This document shows, in pieces, positions 2,691 through 22,388 of a DNA stretch of 64,000 nucleotides. Where the stretch lies: NCBI GenBank assembly GCA_006384855.1, contig VCJN01001970.1, positions 248,001 to 312,000 on the forward strand, read 5' to 3'. The DNA is from Tetraselmis striata. Taxonomy: Eukaryota; Chlorophyta; Chlorodendrophyceae; Chlorodendrales; Chlorodendraceae. Position numbers and translations under genes: made by a program. Positions within the stretch are counted from its first letter, which is position 1. Every line of letters starts with the position of its first letter. Under the pieces are notes generated by a model that was given only the letters and a program-made list of their open reading frames with translations, searched no databases and was not told the origin of the DNA.

Positions 2691-2693
2691 AAT

Positions 2694-3213
2694 CACTGTG
2701 AGATTCAGATGTGACATACGGGTGACGAAGCACTACTGCTAGCGACTATTATTTATCCGTGAAGGCTGCTGCTGGTGGCGGCACGTCCATCCAGTTAAGT
2801 GCGAGTACATCCGGCGTTATTGCCGGCGGGCGATAAATCCTTTTTGTAATCATTGTGGTAGTCGTACCTGCCCGGGGCCGTGTTACATGGCACTGACGTA
2901 CAAGGTACAAGGTTGTCCGCGTAGTACCGGGTAGTACGCGATATATTTATTAAGCCGGTACCGGGTATCTGGTACGAGCCCGGGCGCGATGACGAGTCGT
3001 TCTGTGGATAGCTACGACTATTAGTACATGGGAGCGCAAATCGCATCCGTACGTATTTGGTAACATTGGGGAATTTTGTGTACATTATAGCTAGTACTGC
3101 TGAACGGACCTGCCAGCCGTCCGATCAAAGGTCATCAGAGGGGCGGTTTGGCTGCCATGTTTTGCCAAAGAGTGCTCACGTTACATAGATATTCGCGAGG
3201 GGGAGGGCGGGGG
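2694..3213 (+). repeat. Left terminal and subterminal region of E1
   Basis: This stretch recurs at the left ends of E3 (26282-26790, plus strand) and E2 (35436-35955, minus strand). It starts with the terminal inverted repeat, then GTGACATACGGGTGACGAAG. It also includes a short hairpin, CCGGCG-TTATTG-CCGGCGG, near 2811-2828. No coding potential is evident. Terminal similarity between left and right ends is confined to roughly the first 25 bases. Confidence 0.75.
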
Positions 3214-3565
3214 CAGGCATCGGCTACTACTATTTATATGCACGTATTGTCAAGAGCTAGTCGGTGCGGCATCGTGTCGGGGTAATTTCGCAATGTTTAT
3301 TGTTGAAGTAGCACGGCGTAATGAATACGTGGTTTCACCGAGTGAATCCGGGATAATATATGCGGTAGGGCGCGCGTGTATATGTGCGCGACGAATGTGC
3401 GCGGATGTGCGCACCGGTGTGCAGCAGCGGTGTGCACGAAGATGTGCACGACATGTAGGGGCGGAGCGGGTGAGTGTCCGCCGCTCCACCCAGCGCCGCA
3501 AATCCCCATGCGTGGGCACACCTCCCCCCCCCCCCCCCCATCAAACCTGCCGCCATGTCAAACAA

Positions 3566-4885
3566 TGTTAAATCCCCGAGCTCCTCGCTGATAAAGATGC
3601 GACGACGAGGTTGCAAGCCTACCTCGAGCGGTGGCTACAGGATGGTGGTACCTATGACCCCGTACACCGGGAGCTGTGGAGGCTTCTCGGACAAGACGCC
3701 GCGCATGCCTTGCTGAGAAGGTTCCCTAATGAGGTCCCGACGCCATACCCGGATCTGAACGCTCCCAGGCTGCTAGAGGTGGGTTTGTTGTCGCACATCG
3801 CACAAGACCTGGTTGGTTTCAGCGAAGGACGCGGCGGAGCGGAAGGGAGTACAAACGTCGTGGTTATGAGCATGGTGTTGAGCATGGTGTGTGTGCCCCT
3901 GTCACCAACATGTCATCCTGCCCCCGGAAGACCTGGACGTTGCAGACCACACGCAGGTGAAGCCGTATGACGGGGAAAAGGAGGGCAAAGTCGACCCGTG
4001 GAAGCTCTGGCATTGGGCAAGGAGTGCGCTTGAGATCAGGGTCGGCAAAAAGCAGAGGCAGATGAAGAGGTGCCCCCCCCCCCCCCCCCCGCCCCCTTCA
4101 ACCCCTGACTCGTGCGTCGCTTATTCTGAGCGTGTGCCTTGCAGGAAGGCTTTGTTTGCCGCCTTGCTGGAAGTGCGGCGTACTTTCGTGGCTGGTGCCG
4201 AGAAGGCCGGCGAGCTAGCACCAGGGTTTTGGTCGTGGCCGGTGATCGCGTTGTTGTTCACCCCGGCGGATGCCCCCGCTCAGATCACCTACATTGATGG
4301 GCTGGCTCCAAATCTGCAGGCCATCCTTGCATGCACGTGCCACTGCCGCCCCACTGAGGTGTACCGCGGGCCAAAAGTGAGCTTCACAGATGCCGTGAAG
4401 CACATTCGGTACCCGGTGCGCACCCCCCCCCCCCCCCCCGCCCCCAGGCCGGTGGCGGGGGGCGGGGGCCGGGGCGGGGGCGGGGACTGAGTGCCATCCA
4501 TGTGTTGAGTGATATGAAAAGGGCCACGAGCATCACTGCCTTACGGAGAGGACGCTGGCGGAGACCCTACCCAGTACACGCCGCTCCTGGCAGCCTACAA
4601 CGAGGCACTCTACCCACACATCACTGAACCCCCCGCAGTGATGCTGCGGAGAAACGCAATCACGACTTGGCGGCGCAGTATGTGGCCCACTTTGGGGATC
4701 ATGCTGTGTTGCCAAACCATTTGTACAGTGACGAGGACTACGCCAGCATCCATGCCAGAGCGAAGGAGCTGCGGCTTGTTGTTGAGGCTGCGGCTCCTGC
4801 TGCTGCCGCTGCCGCCTCCATCCCGCCGTAGACGATCGGGTCTGGCAGCACCGCCCGTGCTTGTAAATAAGCGACCATGGATCAC
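3566..4885 (+). pseudogene. Gene B of E1, internally deleted transposon protein
   Basis: The frame shows an N-terminal region with AYLERWLQDGG near 3615 and LLSHIAQDLVGFSEGR near 3790, shared with E2 (minus strand) and E3 (37.1-37.5 kb). In E3 this leads into an Ulp1-like protease domain, but here the sequence diverges after about 3870, so that domain is lacking. Further segments (WPVIALLFTPAD, then YTPLLAAYN) recur in E2 at 33.3-33.8 and 32.4-32.7 kb. Poly-C tracts at 4073 and 4424 interrupt the frame and may lie in introns. Compared with E2, E1 lacks about 600 bases at 4574, including a segment with CPKCHGRGN. It is probably non-functional; the original role is unknown. Confidence 0.5.
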
Positions 4886-4928
4886 GTCATGCTCCGGTTG
4901 TACTCCTACACTTCCTCCACTTTGGCGG

Positions 4929-4959
<31 letters not shown>

Positions 4960-5259
4960 GGGGGGGTCCTGTCCTTATTACTTGCTTCGGTGGACGTGCT
5001 GGATATGGAGGTCACCGGGCACATCGCGTGGTTTCGCAGCGGTCCATTCGCGCCTCCTCGTCTTGTTTGCAATCGTCGCCCCAATCCAATGCAGGGTGAG
5101 TAGCGGGACACTGTGCCCCCCCCCCCCCCCCGGTTTATGTAAACAAATATCTAGCCGTGCATGCGCCGCAATCGGTACCCAATGAGCGGGGTATGTGACA
5201 GTGGTTTCGGAGCAGTGTTAGCATTCCGTGCGTGTGCACAGGCACGTATGACTGGGAAT

Positions 5260-5512
5260 GAGGCGGGGATTGCGGATGGAGTGCATTGGCGGTGCATAGA
5301 ATAGCGTGTTCTTGGGGTTTTGGTTGCATCAGACGCCGTATTCCCATCAATCCGGCACGGAATGTCCGGTTTTCACACATTTGTGTGTGAATATAGTGTG
5401 AATATTACACGTCTTTTCCGCCGGGTGGATGGGCATCCGGCGTCCGATGCACCCCAAGTATTTGCAGCACGCTACTCTACGCACCGCCAATGCACTCCGC
5501 AAGCCCCGCCTC
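5260..5512. repeat. Foldback MITE-like repeat, first copy in E1
   Basis: The segment starts GAGGCGGGG and ends GCCCCGCCTC. Its two halves are inverted repeats: GGAGTGCATTGGCGGTGCAT on the left pairs with its complement near 5485-5500. The centre carries ACACATTTGTGTGTGAATAT and related AT-rich sequence. A related unit follows at 5632-5888, and both have counterparts in E2. No target-site duplication was recognised. It is non-coding. Confidence 0.65.
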
Positions 5513-5631
5513 CATCCGCGTGGGAACCGGTAGTAAGTGTTGTTGTGTGCGCACATCGTGACAACATTACACGGTGGCAATTGCAATTAGCGGTGGATTA
5601 TGTGAAGGCGTTTTCGAAATCGACAGAGAAT

Positions 5632-5888
5632 GAGGCGGTGCTGGCGGAGTGCATTGGCGGTGCATAGAATAGCGTGTTGCTGGGGTTTTAACTGCATCGG
5701 ACGCCGTATTCCCACCCATCCGGCACGGAATGTCCGGTTTTCACACATTTGCGTGTGAATATATATAGTGTGAATATTACGTACGCGTGTTTTACGCTGG
5801 GTGGATGGGCATCCGGCGTCCGATGCACCCCGAATCTCACCAACACGCTACTCTACGCACCCCCAATGCACTCCGCCAGCCCCGCCTC
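5632..5888. repeat. Foldback MITE-like repeat, second copy in E1
   Basis: This has the same architecture as 5260-5512: GAGGCGG start, inverted halves around an AT-rich centre with a TATATATAG stretch, and a CCCGCCTC end. The pair is separated by about 120 bases, and the same pair with the same spacer occurs in E2 (31375-31647 and 31771-32022). The insertions therefore predate the split of E1 and E2. Confidence 0.65.
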
Positions 5889-5984
5889 ATTCCGCGCAGG
5901 TCCTACGTTCCATTGTATGTATATACATACGTACATGTACTGCTCCGAAACCAGCCCAAACTTAATGAGTGCACAAGTGTAAAT

Positions 5985-6015
<31 letters not shown>

Positions 6016-6249
6016 TGTGGCGGCGGGGCATCCACTCACACATACCCCGGCGATGCATGACATATATTACATGCCGTGGCGGGCCGACCCGGCGGGGGTT
6101 TTGGGGGGGGGGGGGGGGGGTTCTAGTCAACTACACGTGCGACAGTGTCGTTTCGTGGAGCAGTTTATGTGCCCGGCCTCATTTATACCGCCCCCTACCT
6201 GCGCTGCATGGTCCACCCCTACGAATTACTTAGCACAAACCGCCATTAC

Positions 6250-6552
6250 TTAATAGGAACCTAGCACAGCCAGGCTTATATGCCCGCTTTGCCGATCAAC
6301 TTCTACGCACTGTCCGTCCCTCAACCGCCGGACATGGGGGTTAAGCCGCCAGCCTCGGCAGTTGCTTAGCCAGACTTGGCATCCCGTACCGTGTCCATGG
6401 CCTCGCAGCTCTGCCGCCGGCACACGCCGAGTCCGGCGCTTGCTGCCGCCGGGTTGCGCACGCATGCACGCACGGTAATACGCCGCCGACGCCGCTACGC
6501 TTACTTCCACCACCTTCGCCAGCCGCAGCTTCGCACGCCGTTCCGCCGACAT
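6250..6552 (-). CDS. Small basic transposon ORF of E1, unrecognised
   Basis: The predicted protein is 100 residues, starts MSAERRAKLRLAKVVEVS and is rich in Arg, Lys and Ala. An equivalent ORF starts at 30702 in E2 on the opposite strand and keeps the frame over nearly all of its length, which suggests past coding function. It lies antisense to genes B and D. A poly-C run (6569-6592) sits just upstream of its start. No domain was recognised. Confidence 0.35.
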   Translation of the reverse strand: MSAERRAKLRLAKVVEVSVAASAAYYRACMRAQPGGSKRRTRRVPAAELRGHGHGTGCQVWLSNCRGWRLNPHVRRLRDGQCVEVDRQSGHISLAVLGSY

Positions 6553-6987
6553 ACGAAACCCACGAATTCCCCCCCCCCCCCCCCCCCCCCCGTCCCCGCG
6601 TCATGTATAATATATTCGAGGCGACTATGCGGGGCGCAGCACACGCCGCGGCGTGGGTCGGCGGAGCGGCGGGCGGCGGGCGGCGGGAGCCCTAATGGCC
6701 GGGCAGTATCCACACCCACACCGGCACCGCCGCTCACCTCCGACGCGGATGAACCGCCTCCCAAAGAAAACATGCCGGTTGGTGGTAAGCGCAGGAGGCG
6801 TGGGGTGCCGGCGCCGGTACCTGTGCGACGGAGCTGTCGCGTCAGGAACCGTGCCGCATGTGGAGCAACACATGGCGGTGCCGGCCCCACCTATGTCTAG
6901 GGCCACCTCCTCACAGCACCCCGCCACGACGGCCTCGGCCACCGCCGACGGCACCGTTGCGGGGGGGGGACGCCCTGCTAGGCGACG

Positions 6988-7506
6988 ATGATGCACCTGA
7001 TGCGCCGCATCAGGAGGCGGAGGAGGTCGTGCGTGGTCGAGGCGACTGATAGGGCTGAGGGGGTTGTCGAGGCGAGCGAGGCTGCGCTCGCGCCACCCGC
7101 CCCGCAGCCACCTGCGGGACATGCCGACTTGCTCGTCGCCATGTTGACCGGAGCACTACGAGCAGTGGCGGGAGGCGGCCACATGCACTACCATGTGCGT
7201 CTCCTGGCCGGACGCCCGTCATGCGTGTACTGCGGCCAACGGACGGACTGTGAGTGTTGCTGCGACGGTACCCCGGCTTTGTGCGGCCCCAAGTACCCAT
7301 GCATGGCGACCCATCAGCGGGCAGTCCCCTGCCCGACCACGGCCGCGGTGAGGGCGGAGTTCCGCCATGTCAGGGACGTGTTCCACGACGCGACTCGCGC
7401 CGCCGTGTGTGAGGCTTCCGAGAAGGCACGCGCGGCTGGTAGGGTGCGCAGGGTGAGGCGGCGGACGGCCCGGGAGATGACGGAGAGCGAGACATGCCGT
7501 CAGTGA
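6988..7506 (+). CDS. Gene D of E1, C-terminal zinc-ribbon-like transposon protein
   Basis: The last 150 residues include a cysteine-histidine cluster, CVYCGQRTDCECC followed by LCGPKYPCMATH. The spacing resembles the Cys-rich C-terminal ribbons found on several transposase families. The tail is strongly basic (RRVRRRTAREM). The same segment occurs in E2 (29740-30330, minus strand) with the cysteines kept apart from one position beside the CC pair. In E2 the upstream frame is acidic and Ala/Glu-rich; in E1 a few inserted bases near 7030 put that part out of frame. No catalytic domain could be found upstream. Confidence 0.45.
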   Translation: MMHLMRRIRRRRRSCVVEATDRAEGVVEASEAALAPPAPQPPAGHADLLVAMLTGALRAVAGGGHMHYHVRLLAGRPSCVYCGQRTDCECCCDGTPALCGPKYPCMATHQRAVPCPTTAAVRAEFRHVRDVFHDATRAAVCEASEKARAAGRVRRVRRRTAREMTESETCRQ

Positions 7507-7643
7507 GGTCGGGCGCAATGTTATTGGGTGGGGCTCACGGGCGTGTAACACTTGCACTTTGCGCGTACTGCTGGGTTACATCCAGGTGGCGTCACACTAT
7601 GCAACCGGAAAGGCTGAGTTGCTATTGCAAACGATGCTAAGCC

Positions 7644-9455
7644 TCACTCGGTAGCAACCGCTGCCCCGCCTATCCCACAGCCGCTGCCCCCCCCCCCCCC
7701 CCCCCCCCGCACCGTCATGCGACCTCGCGTGGTTCCCCGCCACCAGCAGCTCCCCGGCGTCGACGCCCAAGTCGGCAGCCTTCGCGGAGGACATGTCGGC
7801 ATGTCTTGCGGATGCCTGGACCATCTAGTAGGACAAGGGCCTCCTCCCCGCCGGAACCACCGCCGCCGCCCGGCACACTCCACAAGTCCAAGCCCACGGC
7901 AGTGTGGGCTCGTTCCGGCGTCCACACCGTGACACAATGCAGCCCGAATGGGCCGCGCGCTGGCACGGCTGTCGTCCGAGTCAGCCCCTGGCGGGGGCGG
8001 TGGCGTGGCAAGGTAGAAGTGTTGAGCTCGCGCGACCATGGTGGTGTACTTGGCGTCTTCGCGCTCCGCCAACAGGTTTCTTGGCAGCTCCTCCTCGCTC
8101 TCCAGCTCCTCGGTGGTGTAGGGGGGTGGGTCGGCGTCGGGGACTTGCTTCAACATCTTGTACACAAAGAAGGAGTTGTCTCTCGACGTCTCCCCGTCTC
8201 CCCCCCCCCATCCCCCCCGGTGAAGCCGGGGCTTGTCGCCGTTGCGAAGCGACGCCGCCTTGTAGGCCAGGAGCCCCCCAGCGCCACCGCTGGGGGTCCA
8301 GCCCGGCAGGACCGCACCCCACCCCGCGAGTATGGGTGCATACGAGTGCGAGCAATGCACCGTACGTCGGACGTCGTCCAGCAGCTTCTCCAAATGGTCC
8401 TTGAAGTCCACCGCGTCCTCCCACGCAGCGGATGCGCTCCCAACCAACCGGATGGGCGTCTCCACGGCGCCGGGGCCAGCGTCCTCTGAGGCCATGTACC
8501 CCTGTGTGTGTGGGTGGGTCGCTGTGAGTGCGAGGGTGAGTGTGTGTGTGTGTGTGGGTGGGTGGGTGGGTATGGGTGTACGTGGCGGAGGAGGAAGCAA
8601 GAGGGGGGGGGGACCTTCTTGTTGGGGTTGGGTGCCCTGTAGAGGCGATGCGCCTTCATGCGGTTGATCTGCTGCGCGAAAAGGTCATCGCCTTCAGGGA
8701 CGGTTACCAAGCGAGCCTCCCCGTCCGCATCCACAGGGGGGTGCTCTTGGGCAGCCGCCATAGCCTCCACAACCTGCCACGCCGACCGGGCGGGTGCGTG
8801 TGATTCCATACAACCGCAGGTGAGTGGTGCCACCAGCACACAGGCCGGGCCCACTCACCTCTGAACGCAGAAGGTCCACAGTGTCACCGTCCTCGAAAAC
8901 AGCGCGCCATTGCGTCGCCCCGCCGTAGTCCTCCAACACCCACTCGGTAACGACGCCGGTTATCACGCCGTAGTGCCATACTCCCCGGAACTGCTTGGCG
9001 ATGACCTTCATGTAGAAGTCACCGGGATCGCCTTCCCTTATCACGCCCTCATCGGCGGCTTCCACGCCCGCCGGCGGCCACGCAGGCGCGTCGATGTCCA
9101 TACCGTCTTCGCCAACGGGGTCCTCCCCCGCACCCATCACATCGTCCTCCTTCGAGCGACCGTCGTCCGAGACCGGCGCCGGCGGGCCGTTTCCGACGGC
9201 TGCAGCTACTCCTGCTGCCGCCCCTGCCGCTGTTGCTGTTGCTGCTGCTGCCGCCCCTGCTGCTGTTGCTTGTACTAAGGCGGCCTTGCGGCGCAACTTA
9301 CCCGCACGCTTCAACGAGTGCCTACAGTTCGGGAATTTTAGGAAGTGCCGCTCTCGCGCCGTTCTTTCACTACTGCCCGTCACGATGCCATGGCAGTGCT
9401 TGCATGTGTACACGCCATCCTTTGACACACTCGATATCCATCCCTCTCCCGGCAT
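7644..9455 (-). CDS. Gene E of E1, BED-like zinc finger plus Tudor-like domain protein, spliced
   Basis: The start is ATG at 9455. Exon 1 (8859-9455) ends at a GTGAGT donor, exon 2 is 8615-8764, and exon 3 starts at 8501 after a CACACACAG acceptor and runs on to about 7644. The N-terminus holds a putative zinc finger (YTCKHCHG then RHFLKFPNCRH, residues about 15-50), similar to BED or hAT-type DNA-binding fingers. An Ala-rich linker follows, then a segment ending VFEDGDTVDL (residues about 175-190), typical of Tudor/chromatin-reader barrels. It runs opposite to gene D. The E2 copy is frameshifted; this copy keeps frame across the G-rich stretch near 8205-8219. The reading of the last exon is uncertain. 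The role, probably DNA or chromatin binding in transposition, is inferred. Confidence 0.55.
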
Positions 9456-9603
9456 GCCTGCTGCCGCGCGCGAGCCGGGGGGGGGGGGGGGGGGTGAGAG
9501 TTGGGGTGGATGTAGCCCACCACCGGCAGGGAGCACAGATGCTAGTGCGCGGCTGTCCGCGCTTGGTTCAGCGGTGAGCGGCGGTGACCGCCAGGCTACC
9601 CCG

Positions 9604-10145
9604 TACTTCATGCGCGTGCATGGATGTGCAGCGTTGTATGTGCATGGATGTGCAGCGGATGTGCAGCGATGTGCGGCGATGTGCAGCGAGTACGTGCAGC
9701 CGCCTGTACTTAGCCCAGGTGCTCCGCGTCGGCGCGCGACACGCGAGCCCGCGTGCGCATATCAATTTGATGAAATTATCGAAACGAATAATTCATACAG
9801 TACTTTACAGGTCGCGCGAGATAGTCGTCGCTACTCGGTATGAAATCTCACAGCAGCGATGTGCAGCGATGTGCATCGATGTGCGGCGATGTGGAGTGTG
9901 TACGTGCAGCCGCATGTACTTAGCCCGGGTGCTCCGCGTCGGCGGGCGACACGCGAGCTCGCGTGCGCATATCAATTTGATGAAATTATGGAAACGAGTA
10001 ATTCATATAGTACTTTACAGGTCGCGCGCGATAGTCGTCGCTACTCGGTATGAAATCCACGTCCCTCGTCCGTCCCGTATCGTCCCCGTATGTCGTCGTT
10101 CGTCACCAGTAGGGCACACTTGCGTCACATCTGAATCTCGCAGTG
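9604..10145 (+). repeat. Right terminal region of E1 with a tandem duplication
   Basis: A unit of about 200 bases, running from GATGTGCAGCG repeats through ACTTAGCCC to TACTCGGTATGAAATC, is present twice (about 9660-9848 and 9855-10058). E2 and E3 carry it once. The region ends in CGTCACCAGTAGGGCACAC and the terminal inverted repeat. Short GATGTGCAGC and GATGTGCGGC motifs repeat several times, as subterminal transposase-binding motifs do in CACTA elements; that role is inferred. Confidence 0.7.
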
Positions 10146-10148
10146 AAT

Positions 10149-10991
10149 GCAATTTAAGGCAAGAAGGCTGTTATGTACTCTACACTGTTGTACTTTGTAC
10201 TGCGGGAGCCGACGAAGGAGCGAAGAACTGGCGACTGAGACGGACGAGAACGAGTACAAGCCAAGCGAAGTACATGTATGAGCATTGCGAGTGCGAGTAC
10301 AAGTGAAGGCGAAGTACTGGTACGAGGACGACGAGGCGTCAGTACGAGCGACTACCATGCGACTAGTAGTGCAGGACAGTATTACGAGTACCCACATGGG
10401 GTGCGAGTAACCTGTACTTACGCATGCGTACCATCAGGAGCGCGATTGTCGTACGCTATGGTGTCCCCTGCTAGAGGATGATGACACCAAGCGTTAGATG
10501 GAGCGCTGCCTTAGTGGAGTATTAGTAGTAGGTACTAGAACCTACTAAAACCATCTAGAACGCTATAGCATTTGCTATAGCAATAATATATAAATATTAT
10601 ATCACTGTGCTGCGGACAGACGAAGGTGCTAGCAACCGTGTCTGTACTTAGTAGTATATGACTAAAACAGCGACGGGCCGTGGGTAAGAACCGCACACGT
10701 CGATTTTAGTATCAGTCTAGTAGTTAGACGCAGCACAGGTGGCGGAAATTGGATCGGTACACAGCGCACGGAATGACGGAAACCAGCGACTAAAAATAGG
10801 CCGGCAAAACCACCGCCGGGCCAGTCACCCCGGTTACCGGCATTCCGGTACTGTTAGAATCCCTTTTCCCAAATCTCCGCTCATTATTCCTGGCCGTGTG
10901 GAATAACGATCCAGCAATGGGCCCTCGACTCAGCTCCCGCTTTAGGACTATCTATGGCTAGACGACTATTCGGCCTAAGTCCTAAGGGGGC
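10149..10991. other. No gene; retroelement debris between E1 and Gypsy-1
   Basis: The first 25 bases resemble 17334-17350 and are the other side of the Copia-like sequence that E1 interrupted. The remainder has no convincing ORF. It contains AT-rich sequence near 10580-10605 and frequent TACTAG/TAGTAC motifs. I see no RNA gene. Confidence 0.5.
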
Positions 10992-11348
10992 TGTAACAAA
11001 GGCAAAGGTTGTGAGGGAACATTATCGAATGTTACAGGATCATCAGTTGGTTCAGCTATTTATCGGCAGAGGCAGAGCAGCGGCATAGCAATTCAGCGGT
11101 CAGTCTTGGGCATTGCGGAAATAAAGCATCGGGGAATGTCAGTAGCAGTATCGGGGAATGTCAGTAGCATCATTGGGGACTGTTAATAGTAGCATCGGTG
11201 ATTGGGATTTATAATGACAAATGGTATGCGTACATGTTACAGTACGAGTTACATAAGTACGGTAGGTAGTGATATGATATAGGAAATGATAATACTATGA
11301 GATAAGTGGTTATGTGGGTATAGTGCAGCGTTAGGTGTAGTCCTAACA
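10992..11348 (-). repeat. 3' LTR of Gypsy-1
   Basis: On the minus strand the LTR starts TGTTAGGACTACACC and ends CTTTGTTACA, the TG...CA ends of LTRs. A second copy, lacking one edge and with an extra unit of an internal 22-base repeat (CGGGGAATGTCAGTAGCAG type), is at 17351-17732. The five bases outside each copy do not match, so no target duplication is visible. Confidence 0.75.
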
Positions 11349-11362
11349 TTCCTTCCCCTCAC
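11349..11362 (-). promoter_or_regulatory. Polypurine tract of Gypsy-1
   Basis: The minus strand reads GTGAGGGGAAGGAA directly before the LTR start TGTTAGG. This purine run in this position is the standard plus-strand primer site of LTR retrotransposons. Confidence 0.75.
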
Positions 11363-11374
11363 GGAGAATAATAG

Positions 11375-14350
11375 CTACGGTATTTTCAAGGGGAAGCGGG
11401 CCGTATATTTGAAATGCAAGTTGCGGTAGTGTGATGTGTGGAATATTTCACGCAGCGGCTGAGATTTGTCTGCATATAGGTGTAGCATATCAACACGACG
11501 AAGATTTTGATATGGTTCCCATGAGTCATGGGATCCGTCATAGCCTTGCCAACGGACTAGGAACAGCAGCGCAAGGCCGCAGGAGTAGTCAAGGTCATCG
11601 TTGTTATATTCGATACGGTGGTTGAGGATTTGATCTATGATAAATTCATCTGCTGGCAGAGCCGTTCGATCAGGGACAGTGTCGGGTGGAACATCAGGGG
11701 AGTGACAACGACGAAGGCGGGAAATGTGAAACACAGGGTGGCATTCCATTGTGGGGGTAAACGTATGTGGTAAGCTTGAGGTGAAAGTTTACGAACAATG
11801 GGATAAGGACCAATTAAACATTGGCGGAATTTTTTTGTTGGTTGATTTCGTAATAGGAGGTGTTCAGTGGACAACAACACCTTATCACCCTCAAAAAAAT
11901 CTTCTGGTCGGGTACGGTTGTTTGCATAAACTTTTTGGTATTCGTCGGCTGATTTCAGCTGTTCGGTTATAAGGGCATGAGTATCATGTATGGTATGTAA
12001 GAGGTCAAGGTGTGGGTGGTTAGTATTCGGGGTTTTGGTGCAAGAGACTGGCAGGGGTTAACGGATTTAGGCCGTACACGGCTTCAAAGGGAGTGTGATT
12101 TGTGGCGTACTGGTTGGAGTTATTATATGAGAATTTAGCAAGAGATAGGGCATTCAACCAGTCATCATGATTTTTATGCACAAAAGCGTGAAGTATTTGT
12201 TCAACAGTGCGGTGGGTACGTTCAGTTTGGCCGTCAGTTTCAGGGTGGTATGAAGATGATATGTTTAACTTTGTTTTGAAAGAGCGGAATAAGGATTGCC
12301 AAAATGCGGAGGTAAAACGGGGATAGCGGTCGGAAATGATAGTGCGGCACAGGCCGTGATGACGGTAGATGTTATTTATAAATAAACAGTTTGGCCAATT
12401 GGGGAGCGTCAATAGACATGTGGCAGGGAATAAAGTGGGCTTGTTTAGAAAAGGTCCAGACAAAGGTTGCAATAGCATCATAGCCGTCTTGCAAAGGGAG
12501 GCCTGTTATAAAATAATCCATTGAAATGATCTCCCAGGGTCGAGATAGAGGCTTTTGGTAACGGAAATAATATACCGGGTGGGTTTTGGGTAGAAGCCTT
12601 AATGCGTTGACATGTGGAGCAAAGTTTGCAGTATTTTTTATGTCTTTGTTCATGCGTGGCCACCAGAACGTTTTTGGAAATATTGAGTAAAGCGCGTCGG
12701 GTGTCCGGGTGTCCAGCGGTATCATGATATTCGAGTATTATAGAGTGCATGATTTGTTTATCGGCAGCAGGTATGCAGGTTTTATCAGCCATCCAATAAA
12801 GGTTATCGTTAGAGTCAAAGTTGACATCGACATGTATACATGGGGCCTGAATAATTTGCATCAATGCTATAGCCGTGGCGAATACATACGGTTAAGCAGT
12901 GAGGAGTCAACATGCAGGTGCCACATAGACGAGAGAAAAATCATGCATATCCTCTAGTTCGGAGTCAAGTATTTTTTCCTCAGCGGCGAGGACATCATGT
13001 TTGAGATTAGGTCGGCGGGATAGGGCGTCAGCTTCATTTTGGCTACCTTTGCGGTAAAGTATTGACAGAATAGGTTTTTTGAGTGCGGGTTGAGATGGCA
13101 AGATCAGGTAAAATGTCAGAGAGCCAGAGGGCGTGGCGGCGGCCGAGGGCATCTTGAGTTGGTAAATGACGTAAGGTGGCATGATAAGTGATTACTGTAA
13201 TGCTAGCGGCACCTTCGACATAGCAGCGCCATCCTTTAAGCGTGTAGACAACACCCAATAGATAATTTGTGTGAGCAGGTTGTATTATTTTGGCAAAGTA
13301 AGCGCACGGGCGTAATCTGTTGGAATCGTCTTTATGTAAAAGAACGGCGCCTAAAGCGTATTTACTGGCATCCGTGGATATGACGAATTATGCGTCAGGA
13401 CCGGCCTTAGGACTCATTCATTAGTACATGGGCAGAGCAGAGCAGCGCGTGTTTCAGTGCATTAAACGCAGTGTGTTGACGTACGCCCCACTCGAAAATT
13501 TTCTTTTTGCGAGTAATGTCGTAAAGGGGTGCAGCTAAGTGAGAATATTTGTGTATGTACCGGTGGTACAAATTGCAAGAGCCCAGGAACTACAGGACCT
13601 GCTGAACAGACTGTGGCGGGGACCAGTTTTTAACAGCGGAGACTTTATCTGCAGAGGGACGTAGGCCAACTTTGCTGACCATGTGCTTTAAGTATTCGAG
13701 CTCGTGTTTAACCGAAAAAAGCATTTTAGGTAACCGTAGTCGTATATCATTCTGCACCAGTAAGCCGAGTGTGATGTGAAGATAGTTGAGGTGTTCGTCG
13801 AGAGAGTTGCTGAAAATTAAAACGTTGTCAAGGGAAACGAGGATCAAAGTGTTTTTGTGAGGCTGTAGAACATGGTTCATCCAGCGTTGGAAGGCAGAGG
13901 GGCGTTTGCGAGGCCAAAGGGCATTACTAATAGCCTCATATTCTTTTATAATTGCTCAGAAAATACAGTATTCGGATCTTTTCGTTTTATCTCACCAGCC
14001 ATACCAGTAGCGTGAACGATATCGACGTTAGATTCGCGGGACTAAGTAGGGCAGATTATTTCACTGCCATCGGGGAAAGTTAATTGACCGGTTGGCCAAT
14101 GAATATCGGGGTTGTGCGTTTTTCGGAAGGACATGCCCAGTACACAGTTGAACGAGTTTTGTAATGTAGTAATGATAAATTGAACTGTAGCCGTATAACC
14201 GTTTATATTCAACTTGAGGGTGCGTGATTTAGCCGTGAAAGACAGGCGGTCATCAGCCATGACGACCCGTATTTTATTATTTAGAGGTCGAGTGGGTAAT
14301 TTGTTTAGGCGGACATACCTATCAAAATAAATACAGCTAAGGGTAGCGCC
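11375..14350 (-). pseudogene. Gypsy-1 protease-RT-RNase H-integrase-chromodomain remnants
   Basis: Recognisable pieces run from right to left. Retropepsin, with SGAT just before MADDRLSF near 14330, has its catalytic Asp frame broken. RT carries SLDNVLIFS near 13830 where YLDD-type motifs occur, so the active site is degenerate. RNase H has GWRCYVEGA near 13225. Integrase includes an HDTAGH and CSTC-type zinc region (12720-12640) and a core with ISDRYPRF and HPETDGQTER (12350-12200). At the C-terminus a chromodomain reads FLVRWQGY-DGSHDSWEPYQNL (about 11530-11470). Several stops and frame changes separate the pieces, so no full polyprotein is made. Confidence 0.8.
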
Positions 14351-15720
14351 GCTTATCGAGTATCATACACCCATGCACATAAGTTTGGGGTCCCTTTTCG
14401 GCAGTCTCAAGACTTCAGAAGTCTAGGGTACCTGAACGTAGGGTACATGAGGTGAAACCCTGGAATCTCAGAGGGTTTTATAAAATCTGCGTGACGAGTG
14501 GCTCAAACCGAAGCTTAAAGACCTTTGACTAGGGTGTCACGCTGCACTTGGTGCGTGGATGGGCGTCGCCTGCAACTGCACAAAAACCAGAGTCGGTATC
14601 ACGCACACGCCGACGCGCGTGCATAGGCAACCAAACGGCGGGATGGCCATGAACGCGTGAGGAAACACATTGGCGAGGGGCTCGGGTGCATTTGGTTGGG
14701 GTGCAGCCGTGTGGGCGGCGGCTAGTACATGTCGCGTTGCGATACTGGCATGGCATCAGTGTCGGCCACGCTCAGCAACACCCCCTTGGCTTCAAAACGC
14801 TATAACTTCTCAGGGTTTGCTCAGAAAATTGTTTTAAAAATACCACGCAAATGCTCGTTCAAATCTGCGTCGAAATCAATCTTTCAAAATCGATTTTTTG
14901 GGGCCCCGGAAAATTCCCCAAAGATGATCATCCAAGTTGCCCCTAATTGCCTCATGTGCCCACCCATGTCGGGCGCGTGGCTTTGCGCCAAGTGCGTGTC
15001 TAAGCCCCATACTCGGCTGTGCGAGAGCGTTATGTATGTGGATGACCACGGACCACCAACACTTGGCATGTGCCGCCTCCTAGCGATACACACATCTACC
15101 AGCCAAAATGCCATTTTCCACAGCATTTTTCAAGGAATTTCATATTAATTAAAGTCCACGCCCCTACCGCGCCACCCCGCCCACGAAACGGTGCAACTGG
15201 CATTCCACCACGCGCCCCCATAGTAGAGCATCGCCCTACGCCAAGGGGCCCATCGAGCGCCTCTCCTACGTGCGTTCGCCACAGAAACAACAACATTTTC
15301 ACCCCAAAACTGCTTCCCACAGTGGCCAACTTGTCGTTGGGGTGTCACGTCGTGCCTGTAGCGACATGCTTTCAGTGGCCTACACGCACGGTGTGTGCAA
15401 CTTGTGCCAAGGGGCGTATTCACCGAGTTTGGTGCGACGAGTGCCGCTTTTTCCATAGGTTTGGACGGTTGTCGCAACCCACAATTTTCCGGCGCCAACG
15501 CATCATGCAATGATTTCGCGGTTTTAAAGGGCGCCCACAAATGGTCGTGTTGTCGCGCGGGTGGGTATAAAGCGCGCGATAGGCGTTCACCCGAACTATT
15601 CCACTGTAGTTAGCATGTATGCACATGCAGCCGGCGTTATCCTCGCCCATGCATGCGCTTTGCGATCGAAAATGCAAAACCCGGACTTATGTGGAGGGGT
15701 GTAGTAGCGGGCGGTAAAGC
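14351..15720. other. Unidentified insertion within Gypsy-1
   Basis: Gypsy homology stops at the protease and resumes with gag-like sequence near 15732. The intervening 1.37 kb has no LTR, no recognisable domain and no long convincing ORF. It includes AT-rich stretches (14800-14900, 15130-15160) and a TATAAA at about 15567. Its ends show no obvious inverted repeats, so its class is unknown. Confidence 0.4.
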
Positions 15721-15731
15721 AGGGTGTTCAG

Positions 15732-16765
15732 TTAGGGTCGGTTGCGTAATAGCAGATTGTTGTCGTTCATAGACGTTATAAAGGGCTTTTCTGTTTTAAA
15801 GCGGGGTTGGTGCGACTTGACCCGGGCACGCGGGATGTATGTCTTATCTTGAGATTCGTAGTTGGGGGCTTTGTAGTCCTCAGTGGCCATGACATAATTT
15901 ATGGCAGCAGCATCACGTTCTTCGATGGTGCTATCTGCGAGGTATACGTCAACTATCCACTGTGTGGGTGGCATTGGCAAGTTCTCAGTGGCAGATGTGG
16001 CAGTGTGGAATAGGTAGGTACCCGCAGGGTAGGAATGAAGTCGGTCGTACTTTTCCTATATATGGGTCCAAGATTCCCCTAAATCAGAAGACCAACGGGG
16101 CAAAATGATTATAGCACGGGTGTTATAAGGTGATTCCTGGCGTTAAGTATCAAAATGTTCGAGAATTGGTAATACTGATTCGTCGTACGGTGGAGTTATT
16201 TGTACAGTATGACAATTGCTGAAGTGGAGGTAAAGGGTTTATTTCTAGAGCAGTACTCAGGGCAAACAACGTCAAACGCAGAGGCACAAGCGTTCAGAGT
16301 TACATGACCATATTCAGAGTTTAGTCGAAACATTTCAGTTTTATCAAAACGAGTAGAGTAAGTGGGCAGGCAGTTGGTCGTTTTATATTCTTTTTAGCCT
16401 GCCGTTGTTTAGCGTACTGGCTTGACGGAACCGGCGAATAGCATAACGTTTCTCAGTACGAGACAAGCCCTCGGTTGGATTATCCGCAGGGATGGCAAAG
16501 TCAGCGGCAGACAGGGACCTACGAACCTGCTCGTTGGTGAGCGCCACTGGGTCGTACAACTCGGTGGGCAATACCGAGGAGGCCTCAGCGTGCGCATCAG
16601 CCACAAGGGCGGCGGTAGCTGGGCTATTCTCGTCCGGATGCAGTGCCATTGGAGATCCCCCGGCCTCAGAGGTCGGGGGATAACACGGCGGAGCTGGGAC
16701 AATTTCGATTGAATTACAATTCGAACGTCTGACAACAAACTCCGCCCCAACCCGTCATTGGTCAT
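15732..16765 (-). pseudogene. Gypsy-1 gag-region remnants
   Basis: Two coding-like stretches occur on the minus strand: 16649-16383, Ala/Glu-rich with LPTELYDPVALTNEQVRRSL, and 15980-15732, with WIVDVYLADSTIEERDAAA. Position upstream of protease on the same strand suggests gag or the gag-protease linker. No zinc knuckle was seen. Assignment rests on position only. Confidence 0.4.
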
Positions 16766-17020
16766 TCAGGTTCATGGCCTTAAGACCCTTAGAGGTTTTG
16801 GTGGCAGCCACTTTAGCTTGCCAAGCCTTTGTCAACGAGGTTAGGCTCAGGGCAGACTACAACAGGATGGCCTACTTTACTATAGCCATAGCAGGTTTCA
16901 GTATAACGGCAATATCCGGCCAAGCCATAGCGGCGAACTCAGCGTCGACAGTTTCGAAGGGGCAACGAAGGGTGTCCAGGGTAGCAGCTGGAAGGCTCGG
17001 ATGGCGTCGATCGGTAGGGA

Positions 17021-17310
17021 TGTCGTTGGCAGGGGAAGCGTGCGGATGCGGGCGGGGGGGGGGGGGGGGGGTGCGAAGTGACGTCCATTGGCGATGCGTG
17101 GATGCTATCCGTGGCTAGGGCGCGGGTTGTTGGTTCGGCCAGCTAGGCCCGGATTACACGGGCCACTGGGCGGTGTCAATCTGTACTTCGATGGTTAGCG
17201 GCAGCGGCGGCGGCAGTGACAGGCTGGTCGTTCACGATGGCAGGTAGGGGGGTGGTGACACGCGGTGGAAGCGCGGCGGGGATCTTTCACCAGAGCTCGA
17301 ACGAAACTAA
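17021..17310 (-). repeat. R1 fragment c
   Basis: This matches the R1 interior at about 735-1045 and 40440-40715, including the G run (17047-17070) and GAGCTCGAACGAAAC near 17294. It abuts a Copia fragment at 17313. It lacks both termini of R1. Confidence 0.7.
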
Positions 17311-17350
17311 TCCGTGTACAGTAATGCCCTAATGCAATTAGAGGCAAGAA

Positions 17351-17732
17351 GGCAAAGGTTGTGAGGAAACAGTATCGAATGTTACAGGATCATCAGCTGG
17401 TTCCGCTATTTATCGGCAGTCAGCAGCACAGAGGCAGAGCAGCGGCAGAGCAGTTCAACGGTCAGTCTTGGGCATTGCGGAAATATAGCATCGGGGAATG
17501 TCAGTAGCAGCATCGGGGAATGTCAGTAGCAGTATCGGGGAATGTCAGTAGCAGCATTGGGGACTGTTAGTAGTAGCATTGGTTCTTGGGATTGATAATG
17601 ATAAATGGTATGCGTGCATGTTACAATACGAGTTACATAAGTACGGCAGGTAGTGATATGATATAGGAAATGATAATAATATGAGATAAGTGGTTGTGTG
17701 GGTATAGTGCAGGGTTAGGTGTAGTCCTAACA
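17351..17732 (-). repeat. Gypsy-1 family LTR lying inside a Copia protease
   Basis: On the minus strand it starts TGTTAGGACTACACCTAACC at 17732, immediately after Copia protease sequence, and loses similarity at 17351 before the expected terminal TTACA. It is followed by a Copia-derived stretch that matches the E1 flanks. This is a solo or truncated LTR rather than the 5' LTR of the adjoining Gypsy-1 body. Confidence 0.65.
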
Positions 17733-17939
17733 TGTCGGGAGTATGTAACAGTCTCGTGCCACAATGGTATGTGGCCTGCCTGTGATGTCTAGTGTTGGCG
17801 CCGGCGTGGTGCCGATGCCGACTGCCGGTTGCCCGAAACCGCCCACCAGAAATTGCTCCGCCGCAGGAATGTCCATGTAGTTGATGTAGTCGGTGCGGTG
17901 GGCGTTGACGTGAGAGGATGCTCCCGAGTCGATGAGCAC
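17733..17939 (-). pseudogene. Copia retropepsin, truncated
   Basis: The frame opens VLIDSGASSHVNAHRTDY, a Copia aspartic protease active site (D-S-G-A) with the usual following His. It continues to a DCYILPT segment cut by the LTR at 17732. A TGA at 17940-17942 sits just before the motif, where Copia proteins usually have Trp (W-x-LDSGAS). The protease would cleave the Gag-Pol polyprotein. About 70 residues remain. Confidence 0.8.
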
Positions 17940-18990
17940 TCATGCCTCGCCATCGCTGGTGATGAAGGTGCCGTATGACGTGTGGCAGACAGTGATGACG
18001 GCTGGGGAAGGGGCGGCGCCCGAGACATCCTTGATGTAGTTGCACATGACGTTGAGGTCGATGACCCCGCCGAGAAGTTTTCGCAGTGTCGCCTCAGAAA
18101 GGTGACATGTGGGCAGATCATCCAAGGTGAAGCCTATGGCGCGAGCGCGTAGAACTGAAGGGGGTTCGCACCATCTGCCGCTGTATGCCCAGGACCAGGG
18201 GCCATCATGTTCGTAGACCATGCCAGTGCCCGGCTGACCGTTGGTTTGCATGCGAAAAGCGTATGAGGCGGGGCGGGCGACGAACTTCGGAAAGTAGTCA
18301 GTTGTCACCACCGGAGTAAAGTGGGGGAACACAAAGGTCCCACGCGCAGGGGCCGGGGTCGGTGAGCTCGATGGCGTTGATGTTGTCGATGTAGTCCTGG
18401 ACGTCGGTTTGCGAAGCGATATTGGTCCACATGAGGGTGTCGCGGGGAGCCGCCGAGCCGCAGGCGGTCGCACGCATGATGTTGCCGGTGCCAAGTCAGG
18501 AGAGTATCCCAGGGAAGTCCAGCGCACCTGGAACATTCTCCACAATGTAGCGCACCGGTGTGGGCTGTGTAGTCGGGTAGAAACGGATGAAACTGGTGAC
18601 GGAAGCAAAGGCCCGAGAGCGATGGTCCTGCCAGCCAAGGCGCGAGCCAGCGCGCGACCATGGTTGACACAGTGGGCATGACACGATGAGGGTGACCGGG
18701 CGCAGGGTCTCTAGCTCCGCGATGGTGATGTTGTTGACGTCCATGGGGGTCCTGGCATGACAGTCCTGAAATGTTGAAGGGGGCAGACGGTCCGGGTACT
18801 TGTCGCTGATGACATGTAGGCGATGCGTCCACATAGTACGAGCCTCGGGCGACGGGTCGGCGCCGGTGATCTTGTGGATAGTGATGCCGTATTCTACCAG
18901 GGCCTCTACTTCAGATACCGATGGGCCATGGCAGGGTGAAAAGAGATGGTCGATGACCACAGAGGTCGGCAGCGGGAGGATTGGCGCAGC
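17940..18990 (-). pseudogene. Cytosine-5 DNA methyltransferase domain within Copia polyprotein
   Basis: Motif I-like sequence is HLFSPCHGPSVSEVEALVEYG (two halves, near 18960-18900), with the acidic GADPSPEA following. Motif IV reads CPLCQPWSRAG near 18645-18685: the catalytic Cys and the Q-x-x-S context are kept, while the usual PPC is PLC. Motif VI ENV is present in RYIVENVPG near 18540. The C-terminus has GFTLDDLP and LLGGVIDLNV (about 18130-18045), matching motifs IX-X. These features define the C5-methyltransferase fold, which transfers methyl from SAM to cytosine. An in-frame TGA (18496-18498) and a frameshift near 18300 break it. It lies between gag and protease. Methyltransferases captured by retrotransposons are known from some algae and dinoflagellates; this copy is inactive as it stands. 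Confidence 0.75.
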
Positions 18991-19225
18991 GGTGAGGAGC
19001 GGTAGTGTTGGTGGCGGGTCGCCACGCAGGGCGCCTTGCTCCGCATGAAAAATGTGGGATGCCAACGCCGATGAGGCGGGGAATGTGGGTGAAGTGAGGC
19101 ATGGGGTTGGGCTGGGGTGGGGACGGGGTGGGGACGTTGCCAATTGATGTCGAATAGGTGGATGGGGGGATCGAGGGGGTAGAGATGGGAGTAAACGTTC
19201 CAGCGGGGGGGGGGGGGGGGGGGGG

Positions 19226-20744
19226 TATCGAAGATCGGGAAGGCGTCGGGGTGAGAGCGGGAGCGGTGAACATGCCATGAGTGTGAGAACGGGGACTCGA
19301 AGTCGGCATAAGAGTAGGAGTAGGGGACGTGCCATGGGTCATGTAAGTCATCCTCCGCGCTGTCCTCGCCCTCCCCCTCCTGTGCTCCGGTGTCCGCCCC
19401 TCCTGGGGCGGCGGTGTTGCAGATGAGCATGATGGGCAGGCTGCTGTGATGTTGTGCTGATGGGGACACTCCCACGAACGGGTAGGCCTCCTGATGTCCC
19501 GTCAGCCGCGGGTTGAAGGTGTCGCTAGCCTGCTGATGACCCGGGTGCTGACGTCCGGCCGGGGAGACGAAGCCGACCGGCTGCTGATGCCGCTGCATGC
19601 CGTCGTTGCCGCCCTGGTTTGTCCAACGTTGCTGCCGCTGGGGCCTGTCCTGATTGTTGCGGTTGTCGTTCTAGAAATGCTGGCCTGGCGGCGCCTGATG
19701 GCGGTAGTTGTCGCGCGGGTGGTGGCCATAGTTGGTGTTGACGCGACGCTCCGCAGGCGCGCGCTGATGGCGGTCATAGCGAGGGTTGGTCATGGTGCTG
19801 GTCGGCGTGGTGTCATGCAGGATACGCAGGCCGTTGGCATGGCGCATGGCCACACACTGCTGCTGGGTATGGCCCGGACGGTCACACCGTCTGCAGACAA
19901 CGATGGGCCCGGTGGTGTGCTGCGGGTCCCTGGGGCTGCTGGAATTGAGGTTGGGTGGGCACGCGCGGACGCGCTGCTGACGCTGACGCTTGCGCGCCTC
20001 CATGTTCTGTCCAGCGCTGATGATGGTTGCCAACTTCTCGTTGACAGTGGCCGCCGAGGTGGTGGTGTCGACGATATGATCGTAGTATGGGTGAAGGCAT
20101 GGGATGAGGTAGTTGGCAGCCACGTACTTGAAGGTCCATTGGCCATGTGCCTTGTTCAGCAGATTCCAAAGGTTCTGGTAGCGCCGAACATACACCTGAA
20201 CCGGCTCATTCGGGAGCCGGCCCGTTGTGATCTCCTCCTCCAAGCGCTTACGCTCCTCCATAGCTGAGCCTTGGAGCTCAGTAAGAAGAGCCTTCCATGC
20301 TGTATATCCACACTTCCTGGAATCCATGCTGATGCTGTTGCCGATGGCCGGTGCCATGGGATAATGCGCTGTTGCGTGGCGTAGGGCTGCCAGAAGGATC
20401 ATTTGCTCCTGACGGGTGCCTTTGCCCTTGGTGGTGTCCAAGTAGCCAGCGCTGCCGAGAGCGATCTTGATGGCTTGAGCGTTGTCCCGTGTAGAGATGG
20501 TGCTGTCCCAGATGGGGACGTTCTTGAGGTCGAGTGTCGGCTTCACTGCAGCTGGCTTGATATGTTGGATGTCCTCTGAGTCATTGTCTGACGCCCCGGC
20601 CATGCTGAAGGCGTCGTCATAATTGGTATCATCATGGAAGTCAGGAGGTGGCGGGGCGTGGCCAGGGTCGGTCTTGATCGCACTCTGCCGAGCAAGATTG
20701 GCCAGGGGGGTGTTCATCATGCCGGTGTTGACGCTGGTAGACAT
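19226..20744 (-). pseudogene. Copia gag with CCHC zinc knuckle
   Basis: Starting from ATG at 20744, the protein has an acidic N-terminus and then a Copia capsid region (KNVPIWDSTIS, ending with KFVAANYLIPCLHPYY, about residues 65-220). A CCHC knuckle, CRRCDRPGHTQQQC, follows near 19850-19896. An in-frame TAG at 19671-19673 is followed by a further 140 codons in the same frame, rich in Gln, His, Pro and acidic residues. A poly-C tract (about 19205-19225 on this strand) shifts the frame into the methyltransferase region. Gag packages RNA. I chose 20744 because the upstream sequence lacks capsid similarity. Confidence 0.7.
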
Positions 20745-22388
20745 TGCGAAGGGATGGCGCACTTGTGCTTGAGGATGTATAACTGTGGGGGTGGGCGGGT
20801 GGGAAGAAAATCTCGTCGTACTACGTCGCCGTGCGTTGATCGTCGAAAGTTGTCGAGGGTCGAGGTACACGCAGGTTGAAGCCTTTGGCAGGCGTCGAGC
20901 ACGGGGCAAGACGTCGAACCAAAGGAGAGGGCCCAAAAACCTGTCGGAGGGAGATTGTCGAAGTGATGGTTGAGTGGCACCGTCACTGATGAAAGGAGAG
21001 TCGGCGAGGATCGGCGTGCACGCGTCGAATCACGTCGAGTGCCCGCAAGCGAGATGCAAACTGGGAAGGCAAAGGGCTGCTATGAGCCGTGGGCGATGGA
21101 CGAAAGGTAGTCGCTGTCGCCGTGGTGATGGCTGAGTGGCACTGTCACAAGAGAGAAAGGGTGAGTCGGATTTTTTATGGAAAAAGAAATTGACTGAATT
21201 ACAAGGAGCCGAGGCTTGCAATTTATACCAGCCGGCTAGGTGTCAATCAGGAAGGACACCTCTCCGTCTAAGAAGGCTAACTGGCAAAGATGCCTTGGTG
21301 CCGTACTTCTGCCATACGGTCCACATTAGGCACATGTACGGCAGCCAGAAAAATGCGGATTTCACAGAGAGAAAAGCGGATTCAGGGTACCGGGGTACCA
21401 TGGGTCCAACACTCGCGTCTCTACGACCAGTATTTGCGGCGCTTGCGGTACTTAGAGATAGTTCTTGTAATCAGTACTTTTCCACTGCACAACCTCAAGG
21501 TGAACCGGGTTCATCATGAACCTACAGTAGTACCCGCCGCGTACATATATAGACCCACCGCGCGACTGGACAGCAGCAGGCGGCGGCTTGATCCGCGGGC
21601 TTTGTCGACGTGGCGCAGGCCGCGCAGCACGGTTGGGCAGGCGCAGCAGGCAGACGCTGACGATCTGCATCTTGCCACCAACACGGCGCGCGGGGGGGGG
21701 GGGGGGGGGGGGGGGAGCACCATATCGGGACGTCGTTAAGCGTCGTAGCTTCTTACAGATCGCCTTAATAGTGGTAGATCGCTGCCGGCTGCGTTGTGTG
21801 CTCAACGCAGTCCGTAGTCGTCACTTACCCGCCTGGGTGCTAAGTCTCCCACACGGGTGCTTCTCAGGAGAACTCAGCACTGCTGCGAGGTCTTTCTCGG
21901 TTCGGGCACTTGTGCACAGGTACTTCTGCGGCCCGCAGCAAGTCGTGTACCTCCCATCAGGAAGGCCCGCCTGCGCTGCTACGCGCACCAGTATCATATT
22001 CGGCCTGCGGTGCTGTCCCTGGCCCTGACCCTGCGCCCTCTACCGCCTCAGCGCTCGCTACTCTATTCACACCCGATCACAGAACGGGTCAAGTGTACAT
22101 GGATTTCTCCCATCGCACCCCGCCTATACCGGGGTACCGCCTGTACCGACAAGCTAGGCTCAGCGCATCTCCTACAGCGCCCCGCCGGTACCTGTTGTGT
22201 CGGGAGGAGGGTGTGTGCCCACGTGAAGGGGTGGGACAGGCTGCTAGTTCGCGAGCATGGGTGTTCTGCTGCCCAACTTCATTTAGCTGTCGAAAGCTAC
22301 CAGGTCCTAGGGTAATAAAAATCTTGCCATTATGTTCTAAGGGTTGCTTCCCCTGGGCCCTTGCCAATGCCCACTTTTAGCTGCCGTG
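20745..22388. other. Copia leader and gene-free upstream region of ETF-beta
   Basis: Two related stretches, near 20961-20990 and 21126-21150, share GTGATGGTTGAGTGGCAC-type sequence. They may belong to the Copia 5' leader. A G run occupies about 21690-21714. The remainder up to 22388 has only short incidental ORFs and should contain the ETF-beta promoter; I see no clear TATA box. Confidence 0.4.

Follow-up and report, generated by a model that had tools for sequence, protein, structure and literature searches.

A putative DNMT3-like C5 methyltransferase domain between gag and protease in Ty1/copia elements of Tetraselmis striata

DNA methyltransferases (DNMTs) carried by retrotransposons have been described for LINE, DIRS and Gypsy elements, and the copia elements of Symbiodinium were stated to be without any DNMT domain (de Mendoza et al., 2018, PMC5890265). 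For example, KnitGypsy-Dnmt3 of Klebsormidium nitens retains the key residues and has a Ka/Ks under 0.2. KnitGypsy-Dnmt3 resembles the elements reported here in being an LTR retrotransposon with a DNMT3-related methyltransferase (MTase) in the element ORF under purifying selection; however, it is a Ty3/Gypsy element with DIRS-like repeats and its MTase lies in Pol (PMC5890265). The elements here are Ty1/copia with ordinary LTRs, and the MTase is located between gag and protease in several families. SymbioLINE-Dnmt and SymbioDIRS-Dnmt3 of Symbiodinium are also similar, with many intronless copies, several element classes in one genome and purifying selection, whereas in SymbioLINE the MTase is upstream in ORF1 and CpG depletion was reported (PMC5890265). 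The LINE found here has its MTase between RT and RNase H, and the copia families are without MTase-linked CpG depletion. A 2025 paper mentions in passing DNMT3 members in 'LTR Copia and DIRS families' (PMC12344493). Section 5 of that paper names no element or structure, and the paper cites the 2018 work, which describes Gypsy, so the mention could be either a slip or a real case. Apart from it, no copia element with a C5 MTase was described in the literature searched, whose coverage mostly leaves out subscription papers and preprints.

In the window (the whole stretch of 64,000 nucleotides of T. striata DNA that was analysed), an MTase sits between gag and protease of a decayed Ty1/copia copy on the minus strand, which belongs to a family designated A (17732-21411; Table 1). 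This part of the window was 94.2% identical to the intact element L011 by blastn. An earlier note had marked the interval from the insertion break to the gag start, and the motifs that it named (CCHC gag, MTase motifs and LIDSGAS) were all present on the minus strand where it had placed them. The element halts at 17732 and resumes at 2242-2668 with ATGTC on both sides, indicating that 15 kb were inserted in the protease. The far piece was 94.6% identical to L011:4276-4702 and abuts the break with a 5-base overlap. The integrase-core and RT part was not found in the window by blastn with L011.

Table 1. Features of the family A copy and its nested insertion (positions in the window).
Feature	Position	Strand	Remark
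5' LTR, family A copy	20942..21411	-	89.5% identity with the L011 LTR over its full 481 bp (1-481)
gag	19671..20744	-	start MSTSVNTG at 20721-20744; homologous to gag part of the intact L011 ORF
CCHC zinc knuckle within gag	19854-19895	-	motif reading
C5 MTase domain, putatively DNMT3-like	18009..18975	-	lower boundary approximate; at least one frame change inside
MTase motif I-like, DHLFSPCHGPS	18919-18951	-	motif reading
MTase motif IV, SCPLCQPWS	18655-18681	-	PLC here, PPC in intact copies
MTase motif VI, YIVENVPGA	18523-18549	-	motif reading
MTase C-terminal motifs, AIGFT and LLGGVIDLNV	18126-18140 and 18048-18077	-	motif reading
TGA ahead of protease motif	17940-17942	-	
Copia protease start	17732..17939	-	VLIDSGASS at 17913-17939; cut by nested insertion; intact relatives share order
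Nested insertion inside protease, 15 kb	2669..17731	.	flanked by 5-bp repeat ATGTC (2664-2668, 17732-17736)
Same family A copy, far side of insertion	2242..2668	-	protease end to gag_pre-integrs region

The window copy is a dead, incomplete element, damaged by a premature stop in the gag frame, frame changes, the TGA, PLC at motif IV and the 15-kb insertion. The MTase and protease had been read as one frame split by a single TGA. This held for the C-terminal part of the MTase, which shares the protease frame with the TGA between them, but motifs I-VI lie in a different frame. The change of PPC to PLC had also been proposed as the mark of a distinct lineage. PPCQP was present in 20/20 fetched loci, a set biased to intact motifs since it was chosen from PF00145 matches, and we rejected PLC as a lineage mark, as damage peculiar to the window copy; the lineage is distinct instead through its copia host superfamily and the gag/protease position of the MTase. 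The proposed check with the DNA_methylase-family HMM was positive: PF00145 matched the window at 18496-19338(-) with 28.5 bits (E 1.3e-6), above the curated cut-off of 22. The zinc knuckle (13.2 vs 20.8 bits) and gag (12.1 vs 24.1 bits) of this copy were below their Pfam cut-offs, and the zinc knuckle exceeded its cut-off in the family B relatives L010 (27.4 bits) and L017 (24.2 bits). Furthermore, a genome search with an intact MTase recovered the window copy (C1590:266325-266975, window 18325-18975) at 93% identity, indicating that the MTase in the window is not a chance resemblance. The nested insertion itself has an LTR-like repeat pair (10999-11349 and 17349-17733, 86%) and, judged by eye, gypsy-like pol frames at ~12.9-14.4 kb.

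Several intact copies with an open single ORF and near-identical LTRs were found in the same genome (224 Mb, 2,903 contigs), and their domain order matches that of the window copy, which upholds the earlier reading that a C5 MTase lies between the gag and protease parts of a copia element. The genome has 63 matches to chlorophyll a/b-binding proteins, and contigs C617, C397, C261 and C1482 bear both such matches and MTase-bearing elements, indicating that these elements reside in the genome of a photosynthetic eukaryote. Twenty regions were fetched out of 123 PF00145 matches in the genome; 18 were copia-type and 2 (L009, L019) were LINE. A gag knuckle was located upstream of the MTase in all 18 copia-type loci, and a protease motif was seen downstream by the DSGA pattern in 15 of them; family C (L020) reads DTGA, and no protease motif was seen in L026 by the DSGA pattern. 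Where an LTR pair was seen (14/20 loci), its members were 97.5-100% identical, indicating that the elements moved recently.

Intact members of family A have an ORF of 2,037-2,162 codons encoding gag, MTase, protease, integrase and RT, between LTRs that are 99.6-100% identical. In families B (2,299 codons) and C (2,483 codons), a single ORF contains zinc knuckle, MTase, Pol_BBD, gag_pre-integrs, rve, SH3 and RVT_2 by Pfam, some of them below cut-off; the 2,162-codon ORF of family A gave the same order, but with zinc knuckle and Pol_BBD absent at E 0.01. The succession of rve, SH3_retrovirus and RVT_2 was observed in L011, L010, L020 and L032 (rve below cut-off in L011 and L010). Families D (L029) and E (L032) were reached through MTase and RT queries and were not among the 123 PF00145 matches; the readings cover a single D locus and two E loci (L032, L033), and further members were assigned by similarity. 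In D, the MTase-to-RT ORF (1,849 codons) has SH3 and RVT_2 but lacks an rve match at E 0.01, and a gag-like stretch of 437 codons lies upstream in a different frame. The ORF of E (L032) is 2,147 codons long. PF00145 gave 29.5 bits for D and 18.5 for E (cut-off 22). LTR identity was 98.8% in D, 100% in E and 99.8% in A', a relative with a degraded MTase, and 5-bp target duplications were found at L011 (GACAT) and L032 (GTCAA). Among the matches listed for the family A MTase query, 21/126 were full-length at 96% identity or more, and 19 of these 21 were stop-free; for family E, 22/125 of the matches listed were full-length at 97% or more, and all 22 were stop-free. Many family A RT matches break into two frames at a C-rich run encoding YVYPPPG, the length of which varies (10 C in L011, L012 and L013, longer in L018 and L025), through slippage or assembly error.

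Not every copia copy in this genome bears the enzyme. Family F (L031) is a very abundant copia family without an MTase, and 18/65 family A RT places (at least 80% identity), fragments and contig ends included, were without an MTase within 6 kb among the matches listed, the other 47/65 having one. It could be argued from this that the MTase is a neutral passenger or chance neighbour of copia. Such a reading seems very improbable to us, as it is contradicted by the open single-ORF copies in several families: in five families the MTase is part of the pol or gag-pol ORF, the trees match and the domain appears to be under purifying selection. Judged by sequence, the same MTase lineage is common to five copia families (A-E) and one LINE.

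Seven MTases (A, B, B2, C, D, E and LINE) were aligned, and the C-x-G of motif I, the Cys of motif IV, ENV, the Arg of motif VIII and C-terminal positions were invariant in 7/7. The usual motif I of C5 MTases is F-x-G. Motif I of family A is unusual, and family D, in the one locus read, has PCC instead of PPC at motif IV. A four-sequence profile aligned with DNMT3A (PDB 2qrv, 6w89 and others) in three collinear segments, namely motif I, motifs IV-VIII and motif X, of which only the middle one was strong and the outer ones were weak alone (1.2 and 6.5 bits). The seven-sequence profile matched HaeIII (2.2e-10, motif IV-VI), DNMT3A (3.1e-8) and DNMT2 (7.4e-8), and there was no DNMT1 chain among the matches listed. 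DNMT3A was the best eukaryotic DNA MTase in both profile searches, with HaeIII higher and DNMT2 close, and by these profile matches we class the enzyme as DNMT3-like with moderate confidence. The similarity to DNMT3A is low (profile E about 3e-8), and the ADD and PWWP domains, which animal DNMT3 has (PMC12344493), were not found in the element ORFs by Pfam scans. A search with PF12047 for a host DNMT1 gave no match, but the control genomes were equally blank.

DNMT2 methylates tRNA, and the enzyme might likewise be an RNA cytosine methyltransferase that modifies the genomic RNA or the tRNA primer in the particle. The seven-sequence profile rates DNMT2 near DNMT3A, CpG decay is hardly raised (see below), and a GGTTATGG site was found immediately 3' of the 5' LTR in B, C and E. 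We take this site to be the half-tRNA-iMet priming site of copia, so that a tRNA would be at hand for the enzyme. However, DNMT3A aligns through motif VIII (SAAHR..FWGNL) besides IV-VI, whereas in DNMT2 nothing beyond motif VI matches except a weak segment at motif X (4.2 bits), and we consider activity on RNA unlikely.

Selection on the domain was estimated as dN/dS by Nei-Gojobori, with the caution that frame breaks inflate some of the values and that synonymous sites are near saturation between families. The clearer pairs gave 0.17 for the MTase against 0.50 for the linker (L011/L025), 0.18 against 0.34 (L011/L022), 0.185 against 0.60 (L011/L018), 0.19 against 0.72 (L010/L017), 0.21 against 0.63 (L010/L028) and 0.245 against 0.72 (L010/L023); the linker ranged within families from 0.45 to 0.98, except for the 0.34 of L011/L022. 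Higher MTase values were obtained for L010/L015 (0.42), for L010/L016 and L011/L021 (0.33 each) and for an 81-codon piece of L022 (0.39). Family C had too few changes for an estimate, and three B2-type copies, L028 being provisionally counted among them, gave 0.39-0.75 from few changes. These values point to purifying selection on the MTase in several pairs (0.17-0.25 in the clearer ones), and the inactive domain of A' appears to drift. Synonymous divergence between L010 (B) and L017 (B2) was 0.19 in the MTase, 0.064 in gag and 0.077 in protease-integrase, a difference of about 3-fold, such as might result from an exchange of the MTase through recombination.

In A' (L030), an open frame of 1,235 codons comprises gag and a truncated MTase; the matches assigned to A' are 60-74% identical to the family A query and mostly end at residue 211 of 325, before motifs IX-X. 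The MTase was read in 11 copies (L030, L064-L073). The Glu of ENV is changed to Gln in 10/10 copies readable at motif VI, and the catalytic Cys is changed to Leu in 7/11. The pooled dN/dS of this dead MTase was 0.97 (10 copies; pairs non-independent, range 0.32-3.65), and that of A' vs A was 0.43-0.51. In B2 (L017, L027), the MTases retain PPC and ENV; no YVDD motif was found in either locus, and L017 had no RVT_2 match. The abundance of F and the spread of A' with a dead MTase indicate that the enzyme is not needed in cis. The domain might also be kept for DNA or RNA binding as a structural extension of Gag, with catalysis incidental. The altered motif IV of D, whose open frame runs to 1,849 codons, would suit such a role; against it, the A' domain drifts once the active site is lost, and none of the 7 aligned open-frame MTases departs from the catalytic Cys or from ENV. 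A structural role of this kind is, in our estimation, rather improbable.

The RT tree of six rows was (A,D),(F,(E,(B,C))), in which the long branches of A and D meet, a warning for the reading of that pair. The MTase tree gave (A,D) with 86/87 and (E,(C,B)) with 92/87, plus the LINE at the base, and the two trees agree. If F is the outgroup, a single gain of the domain would suffice; otherwise F would have lost it. With 13 viral and other MTases in the tree, the seven retroelement MTases grouped together as a single clade (100/99). A viral origin was considered and rejected: an IMG/VR scan with the A2 profile gave 22 loci with 27-44% identity over parts only, and the 11/22 that were treed fell outside the retroelement clade. 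The LINE L009 (G000:C2687:13500-23400) has an ORF of more than 3,000 codons in C2687, and shorter frames occur in C653, C2172 and C596. It encodes endonuclease, RT, a PCIF1-type domain, the C5 MTase and RNase H, and both methyltransferase-type domains were present in 4/4 copies. PCIF1 is the family to which the mRNA cap m6Am methyltransferase belongs; in the PCIF1-type domain of the LINE, the NPPF motif reads NPEY.

In the earlier note, methylation of the element's copies or of host DNA had been suggested as a role, and for the putative enzyme this is plausible. A CpG scar of self-methylation was considered and rejected, as there was hardly any excess of CpG decay. The MTase-bearing copia families had CpG observed/expected values of 0.74-0.95, compared with 0.98 for the window; the LINE locus gave 0.82 and the F ORF 0.80. 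Whether or not they have an MTase, the elements read thus fall below the window, and in the copia families there was no MTase-linked depletion compared with the MTase-less F. Private transitions in family A numbered 46 on 522 CpG sites and 111 on 1438 other C/G sites (1.14x), and those in family B 24 on 500 and 53 on 1383 (1.25x). Between the window copy and L011, there were 20 transitions on 566 CpG sites and 45 on 1652 other C/G sites (1.3x). Since the excess is slight, it is unlikely that integrated copies bear a lasting CG mark, and durable CG self-methylation is not supported by these counts. A transient mark, another sequence context, RNA as substrate or good repair are possible alternatives. 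The enzyme might also target host DNA or rival elements, silencing them in trans or changing chromatin to protect a niche, and MTase-less and dead-MTase relatives do coexist as potential targets. Nevertheless, the CpG value of the window is 0.98 and family-specific depletion is absent, so that we regard such targeting as quite unlikely.

The explanation that we favour, though we put its chances at only about even, is a clade of Ty1/copia elements with a DNMT3-like C5 MTase between gag and protease that acts on the element's own new cDNA or on the insertion site. Sequence comparison shows the position of the MTase, the domain order, the catalytic motifs, the purifying selection in several pairs, the recent transposition and the agreement of the trees. 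The domain would have been gained once in the copia clade, and the enzyme would be produced within the polyprotein, from which the protease may free it, or it may remain tethered to Gag in the particle. Cytosines of the new cDNA or of the insertion site could be modified ahead of integration or in the course of it, in line with proposals made for other retrotransposon DNMTs. The element would benefit only for a time, e.g., through masking of the cDNA from nucleases or silencing, with no lasting CG mark. More tentatively, and with less than an even chance of being right, a retroelement-specific MTase lineage may have passed between the copia clade and the LINE; the enzyme would be particle-borne and would modify cDNA or RNA transiently without a CG scar, and parasitic families that lost it, such as A', would borrow it in trans.

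The MTase lies inside the element ORF, is multicopy and appears to be under purifying selection, as for a retrotransposon-encoded DNMT. With these elements, the range of retrotransposon-borne DNA methyltransferases appears to widen to the copia superfamily and to include a position in the polyprotein that is new, beside Gag. Furthermore, several states of the MTase occur side by side in one genome: the motifs are canonical in A, B, C and E, motif IV is altered in D, the MTase is dead in A', B2 has an MTase but no RT, and F has no MTase. Owing to this contrast, the role of the enzyme for the element is directly testable by comparing methylation and insertion among the families.

Other C5 MTases were also observed in this genome. 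A second multi-copy ORF of ~325 aa (L001-L006, L008, L040) falls outside the retroelement clade, and in L002 PF00145 covers almost the entire ORF. L034 (G000:C2009:28700-30900) has an MTase ORF of 630 aa with a bacterial or phage look by eye, and its contig is possibly a contaminant. At L007 (G000:C2385:454794-458405), a C5 MTase of 327 aa has an RPB1-like open frame and a DDE transposase as neighbours, and this locus is perhaps an endogenised large DNA virus.
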